DNA of 64,000 nucleotides. Source: Niallia sp. Man26 (GTDB lineage: Bacteria > Bacillota > Bacilli > Bacillales > Cytobacillaceae). Position 1 is the stretch's first letter; every line of letters begins with the position of its first letter. Of the stretch, positions 3,863 through 57,940 are shown piece after piece. The DNA lies in NCBI RefSeq assembly GCF_022049065.2, contig NZ_CP095744.1, positions 1,178,001 to 1,242,000 of the forward strand, written 5' to 3'. Below the pieces are notes generated by a model, which was not told the DNA's origin, made no database searches, and saw only the letters and a program-made list of their open reading frames with translations. Both the position numbers and the translations under genes were made by a program.

Positions 3863-4708
3863 ATGAATATGATTTTATCTGAAGCTTGGCAATTATATAA
3901 TGCAGATAAACAAATTCAAGGATACTCTTCCCAAACATTAAAAGCTTATAAGGTTCAATCTACCTTGTTTATAAAATACTTAGGAGATATTCCAATACAG
4001 GATGTTAAAACGGAATCTATCAAATTGTATCTTGGGGAAGTAGCGAGTGATCTAAAAGCATCTAGCCTATGTCATCGCATTCGTTTTATTAAGTCGTTGT
4101 TCAAATGGGCGCAAGAAGAGAAATATATAACTTTTAATCCAGGAACGGCAATAAAAGAGCCTAAATTAGAGAGTAAAATCCCTAAATTTTTGACGGAAGA
4201 AGAAATAGAGCTATTAAGAGAGGCATGTCTCAGTCCTTTTGAAAAAGCATTATTTGAATTTATGTATTCTACTGGTTGTAGAATAGGAGAAATAGTAAGC
4301 TTAGATCAAAGTTCTATCAACTTCTCGGAACAGTCTGTAATAGTATATGGTAAAGGGAAAAAGGAAAGAGAAGTCTACTTTAATACTCGATGTAGTATTT
4401 GGCTAAAAAGGTATATAAACAATCGAACAGACAACGAAAAAGCTTTATTTGTTACCATCCGAGCTCCCCACCGAATGGGTATTGCACAGATGAGATATGT
4501 CATTAAACAAATATCAAGAAGAGCTAAAATTAATAAGTGTATACATCCACATCAGTTAAGACACAGTTATGCAACTACACTTATCAATAATGGAGCACCA
4601 TTAGAAGTTATTCAGAATTTAATGGGACATGAAAAGAGTGAAACAACTAGGATATATGCTTATTTAAGTGGACAATTGAGACGTGAACTTTATAAAAAAT
4701 ATTTTTAA
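3863..4708 (+). CDS. Tyrosine recombinase (XerC/D-like integrase)
   Basis: The 281-aa protein has an N-terminal SAM-like core-binding domain (about 1-95) and a C-terminal catalytic domain with a full set of residues: Arg140 in TGCRIGE, Lys165/167 in GKGKKERE, His230-x-x-Arg233 in HQLRHSYAT, His256 in MGHEKSE and the nucleophile Tyr265 in RIYAYLSG. It cuts and rejoins DNA at inverted-repeat core sites. It lacks the arm-binding domain of larger phage integrases, so it is Xer-sized. No phage genes adjoin it. Being the only intact non-IS recombinase inside the repeat array, it is a candidate for moving the array units; that is inference. The start is either 3863 or the ATG at 3869 (AGGAAAG lies upstream). 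Confidence 0.88.
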   Translation: MNMILSEAWQLYNADKQIQGYSSQTLKAYKVQSTLFIKYLGDIPIQDVKTESIKLYLGEVASDLKASSLCHRIRFIKSLFKWAQEEKYITFNPGTAIKEPKLESKIPKFLTEEEIELLREACLSPFEKALFEFMYSTGCRIGEIVSLDQSSINFSEQSVIVYGKGKKEREVYFNTRCSIWLKRYINNRTDNEKALFVTIRAPHRMGIAQMRYVIKQISRRAKINKCIHPHQLRHSYATTLINNGAPLEVIQNLMGHEKSETTRIYAYLSGQLRRELYKKYF

Positions 4709-6757: not shown

Positions 6758-6778
6758 CTTATGGAAGAAACAGGGCAG
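6758..6778 (+). repeat. A/B/C repeat, copy 6, left half (A box, split by IS110 copy 1)
   Basis: An A box CTTATGGAAGAA + ACAGGGCAG ends exactly where the identity between the two IS copies begins. The matching C half (GTTAGTTTAACAAAG) follows the element at 8599. Joining them gives a normal A-C repeat, so this is the target site. Confidence 0.75.
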
Positions 6779-6892
6779 CATTCCTGTAATAAGTGAAAAT
6801 GCGATTTGAAAGAAAAAAGACCTCTTGATAAGATAAATGTGTCCTCAGCTGGCCAGCTAAAAGGGACAAAATATCTACTCGGAGGTCTCACT

Positions 6893-8188
6893 ATGAATTA
6901 TAACCAAAATCATAAAATAGCTCAAATCACACCTAAAACTTTAGTAATAGGTATTGATATTGCCAAACATCATCATGTAGCTAGAGCGCAGGATTATCGT
7001 GGAATAGAACTAGGTACTACTTGCTTTTTTGATAATACCCAAGAAGGATTTAAGACATTTATTGATTGGGTTAATCAAATAAAAGAGTCATGCGAAATGG
7101 AGTCTGTCATTACTGGAATGGAGCCTACAGGCCATTATTGGCTTAATTTAGCTCATATTCTAAAGGAGGAACAGATTAAGTTCGTCACGGTCAATCCTTT
7201 ACACGTCAAGCACAGTAAGGAGCTAGACGATAACTCTCCAACTAAAAACGATGTAAAAGACGCAAAAGTCATTGCACAACTAGTCAAAGATGGTAGATAC
7301 GCCGAACCAACGATACCACAAGGAGTTTTCGCGGAACTGCGTGTGGCTAAAAAATTACGCGATTTATTAAATGTAGACTTACAAATTGTGCAGGGACAGG
7401 TACACAACTGGATTGATCGATACTTTCCAGAGTTTTTTACCGTTTTTAAAAGTTGGGAAGGGAAGGCAGCTCTTCATTTATTAAAGCTTGAAGCATTACC
7501 GGAAGAATTGGTTAGATATACAGAAGAAGAATTACTTGAATACCTTAGGCAAGCAGTGAAACGTAGTATAGGGATTAAGAAGATTCAAGCCTTAAAAGAA
7601 GTAGCCAATCGCTCGATTGGCATCCGACAGGGTGCCATGATGGCTAAAATGGAATTAAGAACCTTAATCCAAAAGTATGAACTCATTCAAGCCAAGTTCG
7701 AAGAGCTTGATCAAACTCTGGATACTCTGCTTCAAGATATTCCAGGCGTTGATCAAATGTTAGAGATAACAGGAATTGGGCGCGATACAGTGGCGGGTTT
7801 CTTCGCTGAGGTAGGCGATTTGAGTGAATACAATCATCCCCGTCAGATAACCAAACTGGCAGGACTCAGCTTAAAAGAAAATACATCAGGTAAGCATAAA
7901 GGGAGGACCAGAATAACTAAACGTGGTCGAAAGAAATTACGAGCATTGTTATTCCGGGCATCTATGATTCTAGTAGCCAAGAACAAAGCCTTTAAAGCCT
8001 TACATCATTACTACACAACGAGACCTGACAATCCGTTGAAAAAGATGCAGTCTTTAATTGCTTTGTGTAATAAGCTCATCCGTATACTCTTCTCTATTGG
8101 TAAGAAACAGTTTGTGTTTCAAGAGGAGAAGATGTTGAAGGACATCCCTCATATGCATGCATTTATCCAAGAACCAGTAGCAGCTTAA
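6893..8188 (+). CDS. IS110 family transposase (DEDD recombinase), copy 1
   Basis: The start is the ATG at 6893 with GGAGGTC 6 bases upstream; a longer frame from a TTG at 6806 lacks a ribosome-binding site. The 431-aa protein has the N-terminal RuvC-like domain (GIDIAKHHH with the first Asp, GMEPTGHYW with the Glu, KNDVKDAKV with later Asp residues). After a helical linker comes the C-terminal Tnp domain with IPGVDQMLEITGIGRDT and AGLSLKENTSGKHKGR, which carries the catalytic Ser of the family. It excises the element as a circle and inserts it by an RNA-guided reaction. It is identical to the second copy, so transposition or duplication was recent. Confidence 0.93.
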   Translation: MNYNQNHKIAQITPKTLVIGIDIAKHHHVARAQDYRGIELGTTCFFDNTQEGFKTFIDWVNQIKESCEMESVITGMEPTGHYWLNLAHILKEEQIKFVTVNPLHVKHSKELDDNSPTKNDVKDAKVIAQLVKDGRYAEPTIPQGVFAELRVAKKLRDLLNVDLQIVQGQVHNWIDRYFPEFFTVFKSWEGKAALHLLKLEALPEELVRYTEEELLEYLRQAVKRSIGIKKIQALKEVANRSIGIRQGAMMAKMELRTLIQKYELIQAKFEELDQTLDTLLQDIPGVDQMLEITGIGRDTVAGFFAEVGDLSEYNHPRQITKLAGLSLKENTSGKHKGRTRITKRGRKKLRALLFRASMILVAKNKAFKALHHYYTTRPDNPLKKMQSLIALCNKLIRILFSIGKKQFVFQEEKMLKDIPHMHAFIQEPVAA

Positions 8189-8224
8189 TCTCTATTAAAC
8201 TAAACTTTTAACAAATAGATTTGA

Positions 8225-8465
8225 ACAGATGAACAGACAAAATCAGCATGGGATTAGTCGGCAACGGAACTAACGTAAGGACATGATCCTGTAGGGCAGC
8301 ATGACCGACATCCACCTTATGGAAAGGTTGAACGAAGGAATGTAGGAGCGTAGACTCTGTGAGACTTGGGAGGGTAGACCCCCGTAAGAGATGTGGACAT
8401 CCATTGGTGCGTACATACCAATTTATCCAACTTTTTGAAATAAACCGAAGGTTGGCTGGTTTCTT
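8225..8465 (+). ncRNA. Predicted IS110 bridge RNA, copy 1
   Basis: The 400-base 3' non-coding end of the element folds by eye into two guide-bearing stem-loops. Loop 1 is closed by GTCGG (8257-8261) with CCGAC (8305-8309). It contains AACTAAC (8268-8274), the reverse complement of the right target flank GTTAGTT, and AGGGCAG (8293-8299), identical to the left target flank. Loop 2 is closed by TCCAC-CTTA (8311-8319) with TAAG...GTGGA (8385-8397). It contains AGGAATG (8336-8342), the reverse complement of the element's left end CATTCCT, and GGGAG (8368-8372), identical to its right end. Two more hairpins follow (ATTGGT/ACCAAT; CCAAC/GTTGG). The guide positions are seen in the sequence; the RNA itself is inferred from known IS110 biology. 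Confidence 0.7.
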
Positions 8466-8598
8466 GTGCTCATTTTTTTCGTAAACAGCTTGATTGTGTT
8501 CTTTTCTCTATAACTAAATCTGTAAAGTTAAACAAGTTAGGTAGTAATATGGAGAAAAACTGCGTATTTAAGAGATAAGTGTTTGTTTATTGAGGGAG

Positions 8599-8615
8599 GT
8601 TAGTTTAACAAAGAT
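8599..8615 (+). repeat. A/B/C repeat, copy 6, right half (C tail)
   Basis: GTTAGTTTAACAAAG immediately right of IS110 copy 1 resembles the C tail TTTAGTTGAAGAAGG. Confidence 0.65.
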
Positions 8616-8819
8616 TCCCAAATGCAATATAGAATGTTATTATCTTATTAGAGATGATAAAAGGAGAATTATGATGGCAACTATCCTATGACTTTTTAAA
8701 AATTTAAAATCCTTATTCCCCAAACGGGAGAAGTGTGTCATTTTTTAAAAGCATTAGGACGTGCTATATAACTGAATACTCATCTCTTTAAGTGCGTCCT
8801 CATTAAAAGGAGGATAAAC

Positions 8820-10234: not shown

Positions 10235-10348
10235 CATTCCTGTAATAAGTGAAAATGCGATTTGAAAGAAAAAAGACCTCTTGATAAGATAAATGTGTCC
10301 TCAGCTGGCCAGCTAAAAGGGACAAAATATCTACTCGGAGGTCTCACT

Positions 10349-11644
10349 ATGAATTATAACCAAAATCATAAAATAGCTCAAATCACACCTAAAACTTTAG
10401 TAATAGGTATTGATATTGCCAAACATCATCATGTAGCTAGAGCGCAGGATTATCGTGGAATAGAACTAGGTACTACTTGCTTTTTTGATAATACCCAAGA
10501 AGGATTTAAGACATTTATTGATTGGGTTAATCAAATAAAAGAGTCATGCGAAATGGAGTCTGTCATTACTGGAATGGAGCCTACAGGCCATTATTGGCTT
10601 AATTTAGCTCATATTCTAAAGGAGGAACAGATTAAGTTCGTCACGGTCAATCCTTTACACGTCAAGCACAGTAAGGAGCTAGACGATAACTCTCCAACTA
10701 AAAACGATGTAAAAGACGCAAAAGTCATTGCACAACTAGTCAAAGATGGTAGATACGCCGAACCAACGATACCACAAGGAGTTTTCGCGGAACTGCGTGT
10801 GGCTAAAAAATTACGCGATTTATTAAATGTAGACTTACAAATTGTGCAGGGACAGGTACACAACTGGATTGATCGATACTTTCCAGAGTTTTTTACCGTT
10901 TTTAAAAGTTGGGAAGGGAAGGCAGCTCTTCATTTATTAAAGCTTGAAGCATTACCGGAAGAATTGGTTAGATATACAGAAGAAGAATTACTTGAATACC
11001 TTAGGCAAGCAGTGAAACGTAGTATAGGGATTAAGAAGATTCAAGCCTTAAAAGAAGTAGCCAATCGCTCGATTGGCATCCGACAGGGTGCCATGATGGC
11101 TAAAATGGAATTAAGAACCTTAATCCAAAAGTATGAACTCATTCAAGCCAAGTTCGAAGAGCTTGATCAAACTCTGGATACTCTGCTTCAAGATATTCCA
11201 GGCGTTGATCAAATGTTAGAGATAACAGGAATTGGGCGCGATACAGTGGCGGGTTTCTTCGCTGAGGTAGGCGATTTGAGTGAATACAATCATCCCCGTC
11301 AGATAACCAAACTGGCAGGACTCAGCTTAAAAGAAAATACATCAGGTAAGCATAAAGGGAGGACCAGAATAACTAAACGTGGTCGAAAGAAATTACGAGC
11401 ATTGTTATTCCGGGCATCTATGATTCTAGTAGCCAAGAACAAAGCCTTTAAAGCCTTACATCATTACTACACAACGAGACCTGACAATCCGTTGAAAAAG
11501 ATGCAGTCTTTAATTGCTTTGTGTAATAAGCTCATCCGTATACTCTTCTCTATTGGTAAGAAACAGTTTGTGTTTCAAGAGGAGAAGATGTTGAAGGACA
11601 TCCCTCATATGCATGCATTTATCCAAGAACCAGTAGCAGCTTAA
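10349..11644 (+). CDS. IS110 family transposase, copy 2
   Basis: The 431-aa product is identical to that at 6893-8188, with the same GGAGGTC ribosome-binding site, RuvC-like DEDD domain and serine-containing C-terminal Tnp domain. No disruption is visible, so this copy should also be active. Confidence 0.93.
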   Translation: MNYNQNHKIAQITPKTLVIGIDIAKHHHVARAQDYRGIELGTTCFFDNTQEGFKTFIDWVNQIKESCEMESVITGMEPTGHYWLNLAHILKEEQIKFVTVNPLHVKHSKELDDNSPTKNDVKDAKVIAQLVKDGRYAEPTIPQGVFAELRVAKKLRDLLNVDLQIVQGQVHNWIDRYFPEFFTVFKSWEGKAALHLLKLEALPEELVRYTEEELLEYLRQAVKRSIGIKKIQALKEVANRSIGIRQGAMMAKMELRTLIQKYELIQAKFEELDQTLDTLLQDIPGVDQMLEITGIGRDTVAGFFAEVGDLSEYNHPRQITKLAGLSLKENTSGKHKGRTRITKRGRKKLRALLFRASMILVAKNKAFKALHHYYTTRPDNPLKKMQSLIALCNKLIRILFSIGKKQFVFQEEKMLKDIPHMHAFIQEPVAA

Positions 11645-11680
11645 TCTCTATTAAACTAAACTTTTAACAAATAGATTTGA

Positions 11681-11921
11681 ACAGATGAACAGACAAAATC
11701 AGCATGGGATTAGTCGGCAACGGAACTAACGTAAGGACATGATCCTGTAGGGCAGCATGACCGACATCCACCTTATGGAAAGGTTGAACGAAGGAATGTA
11801 GGAGCGTAGACTCTGTGAGACTTGGGAGGGTAGACCCCCGTAAGAGATGTGGACATCCATTGGTGCGTACATACCAATTTATCCAACTTTTTGAAATAAA
11901 CCGAAGGTTGGCTGGTTTCTT
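11681..11921 (+). ncRNA. Predicted IS110 bridge RNA, copy 2
   Basis: Identical to the predicted RNA in copy 1. The guides fall at 11724-11730 (AACTAAC), 11749-11755 (AGGGCAG), 11792-11798 (AGGAATG) and 11824-11828 (GGGAG). The right target guide matches this copy's flank TTTAGTT in six of seven positions, against seven of seven at copy 1. Confidence 0.68.
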
Positions 11922-12054
11922 GTGCTCATTTTTTTCGTAAACAGCTTGATTGTGTTCTTTTCTCTATAACTAAATCTGTAAAGTTAAACAAGTTAGGTAG
12001 TAATATGGAGAAAAACTGCGTATTTAAGAGATAAGTGTTTGTTTATTGAGGGAG

Positions 12055-13354: not shown

Positions 13355-13440
13355 CTTATTAAAGAAAATTTTCAGCATTCCTGTAATAAAAGAAGAACTC
13401 TTCTTGTGACACAAACAGGGCAGTTTTGTTGAAGAAGGAA
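13355..13440 (+). repeat. A/B/C repeat, copy 9 (A-B-A-C)
   Basis: Degenerate A box ending ATTTTCAG, B tail CATTCCTGTAATAAAAGAAG, second A box (TTGTGACACAA + ACAGGGCAG) and C tail TTTTGTTGAAGAAGG. Confidence 0.85.
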
Positions 13441-57817: not shown

Positions 57818-57940
57818 ATATGTCACAATAATGGCAACATTCCAAAACTTGCTTATGTCACAAACGTGGCAGCATTCCTGTAATAAGTGAAGAGAATCCT
57901 TCTTGTGTCACAAACGGGGCAGGTTTGTTGAAGAAGAATT
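57818..57940 (+). repeat. A/B/C repeat, copy 14 (A-x-A-B-A-C)
   Basis: Three A boxes in tandem. The first (TATGTCACAATAATGGCA) has a shortened B-like tail ACATTCC. The second (CTTATGTCACAA + ACGTGGCAG) is followed by the perfect B tail CATTCCTGTAATAAGTGAA. The third (TTGTGTCACAA + ACGGGGCAG) carries C tail GTTTGTTGAAGAAG. This is the first copy of the right-hand array. The rest of 57630-58097 holds no gene. Confidence 0.88.

Follow-up and report, generated by a model that had tools for sequence, protein, structure and literature searches.

Guide RNAs have been described for two groups of the IS110 superfamily, and the statements on them made here are drawn from passages of three papers. IS621, a member of the IS110 group, has an RNA with two loops and a DEDD plus serine enzyme, and its left guides pair with the bottom strand and its right guides with the top strand (PMC11208160, PMC11208158). 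In the IS1111 elements with a seekRNA (ISEc11, ISPa11, ISKpn4, and ISPst6), the RNA lies downstream of the transposase gene and the complement of the top strand precedes the match to the bottom strand, whereas IS110 proper has the reverse arrangement (PMC11187229). According to the same source, some members target attC and REP hairpins, and re-aiming has taken place in nature. The subterminal inverted repeats of IS1111 elements are usually 11–13 bp long, at distances of 7 bp and 3 bp to the two ends.

The window analysed here is the whole stretch of 64,000 nt corresponding to positions 1178001–1242000 of contig C2 of genome G000 (5.7 Mb, Bacillaceae). It contains two copies of an insertion sequence (a slash marks the cut point throughout):

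6779–8598, plus strand: IS copy A, 1,820 bp, with left end CATTCCTGTAAT and right end TTATTGAGGGAG, which are common to most homologues
6896–8188, plus strand: transposase gene of copy A, 430 aa from an ATG behind GGAGG
6759–6778, plus strand: left target half of copy A, ending in AACAGGGCAG
8599–8618, plus strand: right target half of copy A, starting with GTTAGTTTAAC
10235–12054, plus strand: IS copy B, 1,820 bp, no mismatches to copy A, offset 3,456
10352–11644, plus strand: transposase gene of copy B, identical to that of copy A

In pairwise comparison, the copies were identical across 1,820 bp and their flanks differed. The termini are ambiguous by up to two bases because the left flank and the right end have AG in common. 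The open reading frame listed by the program for the transposase of copy A begins at TTG 6806; the ATG at 6896 was preferred here. The protein contained the domains DEDD_Tnp_IS110 and Transposase_20 (Pfam, 106.5 and 77.8 bits against cut-offs of 29 and 21.3) and scored 210.4 with NCBIfam NF033542 (cut-off 140). Residues D21, E76, D119, D122, and S331 were invariant across the nine-sequence transposase alignment A1 and aligned to D11, E60, D102, D105, and S241 of IS621 (match to the IS621 structure, E 3e-22), which are named as active-site residues in the passages of PMC11208158. The predicted protein has the features of an IS110-superfamily enzyme, a RuvC-like DEDD domain and a Tnp domain with a conserved serine.

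In genome G000, the element had 43 matches, with 40 of 88 candidates scored; seven were nearly full-length, and all 43 were located on contigs C2, C3, and C4. Plasmid records matching the element were Niallia taxi pMEGANia and a plasmid of Mesobacillus foraminis. Element ends were sought by comparing several copies within one genome. In seven of the nine multi-copy groups obtained, the copies shared the left end CATTCCTGT and the right end GAGGGAG, down to approximately 45% protein identity; target flanks varied between groups. The other two groups (G001 and G008, about 44% and 42–43% identity) lacked these ends. The common stretches of these relatives (L057, L116, and L117; L060 and L118), with transposases approximately 42–44% identical, end in different, inverted sequences. 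At another locus (L109, G047:C1:1742664–1746947), one IS copy has CATTCCTGTTAGG directly behind its right end, a sequence similar to the left end of a second IS type (45% identical) found in that genome.

The non-coding DNA of the element comprises 410 nt downstream of the transposase gene and 117 nt upstream of its ATG. The downstream part contains four short strings matching the element's own junctions:

8268–8274, plus strand: right target guide AACTAAC of copy A, reverse complement of the right flank GTTAGTT
8293–8299, plus strand: left target guide AGGGCAG of copy A, equal to the left flank
8336–8342, plus strand: right donor guide AGGAATG of copy A, reverse complement of the left end CATTCCT
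8368–8372, plus strand: left donor guide GGGAG of copy A, equal to the right end
11724–11730, plus strand: right target guide of copy B, identical, offset 3,456
11749–11755, plus strand: left target guide of copy B, identical, offset 3,456

These strings had been pointed out in a first-pass annotation of the window. Each was indeed found at its position and has a single occurrence in the non-coding end, not counting its last 12 bases, and the proposed right-before-left order holds in both loops, running from right target through left target and right donor to left donor guide. The claimed flank matches are complete for copy A; in copy B, the left flank fits at 7/7, but the right flank TTTAGTT fits the guide at only 6/7.

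This arrangement is that of IS1111, with the right target guide (8268–8274) ahead of the left one (8293–8299) and the RNA downstream of the gene; the layout of the IS110 group sensu stricto, with the RNA upstream and the bottom-strand match first, was not found in the element. The reading as an IS110 element with a bridge RNA was thus correct as to the superfamily and the target loop, but the layout and the guide order point to IS1111 and not to IS110 proper. Likenesses to IS621 are the two loops, the DEDD plus serine enzyme, and the pairing of left guides with the bottom and of right guides with the top strand; the position of the RNA and the guide order are reversed, and behind the right target guide stands GT, where a CT would be needed for pairing with the AG core (PMC11208160, PMC11208158). 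With the IS1111 elements, as presented in PMC11187229, the locus shares the downstream RNA, the top-strand complement in first place, a hairpin-like target in some members, and naturally re-aimed relatives; its transposase has 430 aa, that of ISEc11 339 aa. Unlike those elements, it has no significant subterminal inverted repeat (best 8/11, a score reached by 160 of 200 shuffles). By its sequence, we classify it as an IS110-superfamily element with an IS1111-like RNA. Since IS1111 elements are already known to aim at attC and REP and to be re-aimed, the guide RNA would be of a known kind.

The RNA was modelled from 38 sequences chosen by hand from the parsed loci (alignment A3):

8250–8413, plus strand: bridge/seeker RNA core of copy A as modelled, six helices
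8257–8261, plus strand: helix 1, 5' side of the outer stem of the target loop, pairing with 8305–8309; 4/5 pairs compensated
8316–8322, plus strand: helix 4, 5' side of the stem of the donor loop, pairing with 8382–8388; 3/7 pairs compensated

The 27 pairs of the six helices were formed in 97.4% of 1,023 cells of A3 (90.2% after shuffling), 15 of the 27 were compensated (7.8 shuffled), compensated cells numbered 87 (23.3 shuffled), and covariation was 0.287 compared to 0.151 shuffled, with none of 500 shuffles reaching 0.287. The count of further pair types, one of the five structure measures on A3, was not above the shuffles (168/500). When the structure was slid along the alignment, only 31–47% of positions were paired; as the structure was drawn with the window in view, it is favoured over such slid controls, and the shuffles are fairer, as is RNAalifold, which recovered the same core helices without an imposed structure. 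Single-sequence folding of the window was no better than shuffled (z +0.62 and −0.40) and was dropped as evidence. The claim that the 3' end folds into two stem-loops therefore stands only through the comparative data, with the guides in internal loops: the target guides between 8257–8261/8305–8309 and 8279–8281/8287–8289, the donor guides between 8326–8329/8377–8380 and 8346–8348/8355–8357. A covariance model placing the heptamers inside conserved stems had been named as contrary evidence; the comparative structure leaves all four in unpaired loops. Rfam gave no match at gathering score in the window. By this sequence comparison, the RNA has a conserved fold, which includes a target loop as well as a loop of donor type.

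To compare guides with landing sites, homologues were taken from relatives and from a scan of named genomes. The transposase protein matched in 43 of 61 genomes, including the window's own, and the scan gave at least 583 relatives among at least 594 matched stretches, of which the best 80 were used. Guides were read from the alignment for 117 items. Five of the 80 loci (L172, L187, L191, L198, and L214) had no donor-guide anchor and remained unparsed; L222 (misplaced anchor) and EL046 (gap in a guide column) were left out, which gave 115 parsed items and 102 distinct rows. Eleven rows had no usable left flank or CATTCCT left end, and 19 no usable right flank or GAGGGAG right end.

The left target guide matched its own left flank at a mean of 6.68 of 7 positions (91 usable of 102 distinct rows), perfectly in 67 junctions and at six or more positions in 86. 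Shuffling gave 4.59, shuffling within the target class 5.70, and 6.68 was reached by none of 10,000 shuffles of either kind. Because the homologues share ancestry, shuffles overstate independence, and within-class and per-guide shuffles correct for this only partly; with one row per distinct guide pair (47 rows), the mean was 6.74 compared to 4.58 and, within class, 5.69 (0/10,000). Sliding the left flank by one base reduced the fit to 2.31, and by one to four bases to 1.79–2.31 (86 rows). The right target guide followed its flank more weakly: 4.16 of 7 (83 rows) compared to 3.10 shuffled and 3.82 within class (reached by 0 and 1 of 10,000), and 4.28 compared to 3.02 and 3.75 when each guide pair was counted once (40 rows; attained by 0 and 2 of 10,000). 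Within the classes, its values were 4.58 compared to 4.25 in PAL (73/10,000) and 3.40 compared to 3.06 in the Shine-Dalgarno class (70/10,000), where PAL denotes every row whose left guide does not end in AGGAG, including four rows (AAGAAAG, AGGAAAG) with a target neither palindromic nor plainly Shine-Dalgarno. Some right-guide rows (L148, L177) look misregistered by one base.

Differing left guides had correspondingly differing left flanks, with single mismatches in some: AGGGCAG, GTGGCAG, CGGGAAG, GGGCCAG, AAAGGAG, CGAGGAG, AAGAAAG, and others. The pattern that would have spoken against the guides, different guides with the same target flanks, was not the one found, and the proposed covariation of flanks and guides was borne out, strongly on the left and more weakly on the right. 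It is visible even among close copies with 94% DNA and 94–96% protein identity to the window element: L015 and EL045 have GTGGCAG, and EL044 has ATGGCAG, in both guide and flank. Single left mismatches occur in L014 (guide ATGGCAG, flank GTGGCAG) and L016 (AGGGCAG, ATGGCAG). We conclude that the element's choice of target is very probably RNA-guided. The 47 distinct guide pairs with matched landing sites form a natural series from which the pairing rules of downstream-RNA recombinases could be learned.

The donor side behaved differently. In the window, the right donor guide matches at 7/7 and the left at 5/5. All 38 aligned sequences had GGGAG as the left donor guide; at the right end, GGGAG was present in 107 of 117 items, with 8 items unread. 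The right donor guide was AGGAATG in 17 of the 38 sequences, where its match is perfect, AGGAATT in 18, and another string in 3; the left end was CATTCCT in 112 of 117 items and stayed so while the guide varied, so the guide does not follow the end. The fit of donor guides to the ends was mostly six or seven of seven. No covariation of donor guides with element ends was found (38 guides, 117 items), and it was dropped as support; guides and ends are both largely conserved. Donor pairing is plausible from the matches, and is less firmly shown than target pairing.

The homologues fall into two target classes. The first inserts mostly at GGGCAG/xTTAGTT (Niallia, Cytobacillus, Peribacillus, Neobacillus, Paenibacillus, and others), and the second at the Shine-Dalgarno sequence AGGAG/ (Bacillus methanolicus, Halalkalibacterium, Aneurinibacillus, Clostridium thailandense, and others; L194–L221 and loci from G047, G015, G045, G026, and G009). 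A start codon 3–15 nt behind the element that opens a frame of at least 40 codons was present in 17 of 30 junctions of class two (489 of 3,000 positions drawn at random from the loci concerned) and in 7 of 50 of class one (623 of 5,000). The right end of the element, GAGGGAG, would supply a replacement Shine-Dalgarno sequence. The junctions show relatives re-aimed in nature between a hairpin-like site and ribosome-binding sites. Such a branch, together with the occurrence of the relatives mostly in Bacillales, is a difference from the described IS1111 elements. Among the literature titles and abstract openings searched, no IS1111 elements aimed at Shine-Dalgarno sequences were found.

The target of class one was considered next to its unoccupied form:

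13424, plus strand: target site without an element, given as an example, AAACAGGGCAG/TTTTGTTGAAGAAGG, with the cut ahead of base 13424

The guides had been taken to aim at a chromosomal repeat family. The target is recurrent, as claimed, but this description is too simple, since the site behaves like a recombination site between gene cassettes. The strict target site (at most one mismatch) was present in 29 of 61 genomes, and a reversed control pattern matched twice in all. The densest array, in G031 (C1:3,155,549–3,204,645; L245–L247), has its sites on the minus strand at strict stringency, and a laxer search adds two plus-strand matches (pieces shown); the median spacing is 752 nt over 26 gaps. 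It and a stretch of G028 (C1:3512k–3546k; L253–L255) are arrays of small genes split by the palindromic site, mostly in one orientation, in genera other than that of the window. A codirectional open reading frame started 10–160 nt behind the site in 26 of 51 cases in G031 (9% at random positions), 14 of 31 in G000, and 4 of 10 in G028; in G031, a start facing away on the other side was found at 3 of 51 sites. Sites lay inside an open reading frame in 8 of 51 cases in G031 (65% at random), 1 of 31 in G000, and 1 of 10 in G028. Some genes in the arrays are long or oppositely oriented. All 65 left-end-type sites of G000 were on contigs C2–C4. In stretches of this genome, the majority strand of the sites agreed with the sign of the GC skew (65/69, 14/14, 4/4, 20/20, 3/4, 5/5, 1/1, and 3/3); the C3 stretch at 180–220 kb was mixed, with 10 of 15 sites on the plus strand and a skew of 0.006 in its second half. 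On pMEGANia, 27 of 31 sites point one way. In the window itself, the site scan found no site over 42 kb (approximately 15884–57873), although the surroundings are rich in them; this stretch may be an inserted element.

Near the IS copies, the window encodes a recombinase:

3863–4708, plus strand: tyrosine recombinase of 281 aa, from the clade that co-occurs with the target sites; putative cassette integrase

Members of the clade are 59–86% alike, compared to about 29–38% for other family members; they include this protein, a second copy in G000, and a copy in G031. In G031, the start of the gene lies 81 nt away from a site, to which the gene is oriented oppositely; in N. taxi, the copy (G005:C2, about 1387869–1388482) is broken. 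With fragments and broken copies counted, the clade was present in 21 of 61 genomes. Target sites occurred in 17 of these 21 and in 12 of the 40 genomes without it (p 3.2e-4), and outside the genus in 12 of 16 and 9 of 32 (p 0.0046). Near 15 recombinase loci, 11 sites were found in 56 kb (9 loci) and none when shuffled; IS-bearing loci had 21 in 432 kb. The closest solved relatives by sequence were XerD, XerC-like, and XerA. Identity with the integron integrase was rejected (TIGR02249, 101.6 bits, cut-off 265), and TIGR02249 exceeded its cut-off in none of the four genomes searched.

These observations suggest that Bacillales may carry an integron-like system so far undescribed, a reading to which we give about an even chance: mostly one-gene cassettes on the leading strand, bounded by an imperfect palindrome (loop GGGGCAG, cut GGGCAG/) and served by a clade of non-IntI tyrosine recombinases. 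IS1111-like elements would have independently aimed a guide RNA at these boundaries, as others did at attC, and the same IS family could be re-aimed to Shine-Dalgarno sequences, with its own right end GAGGGAG replacing them. This array reading is less certain than the guide-RNA reading. To our knowledge, integron-like cassette arrays are not generally recognised in Gram-positive bacteria, and none in Bacillales was found in the literature titles and abstract openings searched. If the reading holds, the guides, used as a probe, led to a possible counterpart of integrons in Gram-positive bacteria. Like the IS1111 elements at attC, the window element would sit at recombination sites of gene-cassette arrays. 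Unlike theirs, the target sites here do not look like attC, and the nearby recombinase scores far below the integron integrase cut-off.

A serious alternative, to which we give somewhat less than an even chance, is that the target is an ordinary interspersed palindromic repeat (REP-like) and that homology breaks there because repeats seed deletions or alignments stop in repeats. Published IS1111 elements do target REPs (PMC11187229), sites are also present in 12 of the 40 genomes that lack the recombinase clade, and the hairpin arms of single sites do not covary (0.729 paired, 0.731 shuffled, 65 sites). The breakpoints themselves speak against it. In tests that omitted same-genome alignments and those lying in recognised IS copies, cross-genome homology ended no more than 12 nt from a cut point in 78 of 660 cases (5.2 expected, maximum 15 in 500 shifts). 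Among 665 ends, 26 fell at unoccupied sites alone (2.9 expected), 30 at left-end sites (2.2), and 22 at element right ends (0.5). They lay at the cut point: within 60 nt, 21 of 72 left-side homology ends were at 0 to +4 and 31 of 54 right-side ends at −10 to −1. Furthermore, three segments (455, 521, and 1,285 bp; 91–98% identity) are duplicated with both query ends at cut points, and in two of them both subject ends are at sites too; this list includes same-genome pairs. The codirectional starts in G031 (26/51 compared to 9%, and 3/51 on the opposite side) and the co-occurring recombinase clade likewise speak against plain repeats. On the side of the repeat, none of 16 clean indels had both ends at sites, and the precise cassette indel was dropped as support for arrays.

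It is improbable that the element, and not the tyrosine recombinase, builds the array, with two copies flanking a gene, moving as one circle, and each being excised precisely to leave the gene between two sites. IS110 elements are capable of scarless excision, the element ends coincide with the same cut point, and breakpoints are enriched at element right ends (22/665 compared to 0.5). A circular intermediate form is mentioned in PMC11208158. Against this, the densest array, that of G031, has one transposase relative in its genome (E up to 0.001), 40% identical and approximately 0.75 Mb away.

The left end CATTCCTGTAATAA recurs in many short units without an element; thus, two kinds of repeat occur near the IS copies:

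57873–57922, plus strand: a 50-bp unit lacking a transposase, as an example; its start resembles the IS left end, its last bases are GGCAG, and a right target half follows

Such units occur in the window at 1262, 2119, 13376, 57873, 59393, and 60025, single or in tandem and without transposase, and similar ones in Cytobacillus gottheilii (L144, L151, and L191). Where both ends are clear, they measure 44–51 bp, and each leaves a fresh target behind its GGCAG end. The 85 left-end-type sites in stretches from four genomes comprised 15 IS, 37 units of 44–51 bp, and 33 without a clear right end; all 37 units end in GGCAG at the next site, and 6 of them are then followed by another left-end site. 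We rejected the units as host repeats proper: their first 14–20 bases equal the IS left end, which is also present in relatives with other targets, so they are more likely derivatives of the IS. They might be minimal mobile elements, although a 48-bp DNA circle is physically awkward and their right end is GGCAG, not GGGAG.

By analogy with published work on IS621, ISEc11, ISPa11, and ISKpn4, we propose that the non-coding end at 8189–8598 encodes the guide RNA of an IS110-superfamily element with IS1111-like layout, and that this RNA would bind the transposase. Its donor guides would pair with the junction of the circularised element, GAGGGAG/CATTCCT, and its target guides with the chromosomal site, GGGCAG/GTTAGTT, and the DEDD/serine active site would exchange strands at the common AG. 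Less certainly, the target may be the boundary site of a mobile gene-cassette array; the element would then parasitise a cassette system, as some IS1111 elements do with attC.

It is very unlikely that the structure of the end RNA serves a different function, such as mRNA stability or termination, while the protein determines the target preference by reading a hairpin and the heptamers are coincidental or fossil target sequence taken up by the element. One target class does have a palindromic consensus. Capture by recombination is also conceivable: the left guide with its following CAT resembles an integrated left junction, AGGGCAG/CAT, and a damaged copy, L021, has a junction at the left-guide string. 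Yet the left guides of the Shine-Dalgarno class, where no palindromic target is apparent, fit at 6.66 of 7 (35 rows), and the covarying structure holds the guides in its loops, with the strand order as published.

We give practically no weight to chance matches picked by a reader searching many strings: AACTAAC, AGGGCAG, AGGAATG, and GGGAG are expected in base-shuffled non-coding DNA with frequencies of 0.032, 0.015, 0.042, and 0.28, so the 5-mer alone would appear in 28% of shuffles, but the same columns fit the left flank at six or seven of seven positions in 86 of 91 junctions, as the first-pass annotation had anticipated in calling chance unlikely. The product of the four frequencies, 5.6e-6 before any requirement on order, ignores that the strings had been chosen by the earlier reader, and the weight was therefore placed on the homologue comparison.

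The damaged copy L021 (G000:C3:230461–230775, minus strand) lacks a transposase. In this remnant, a GGGGCAG resembling the target site abuts the RNA sequence precisely where the left guide lies, CATGACCGAC, which gives the impression of a recombination event at the guide.
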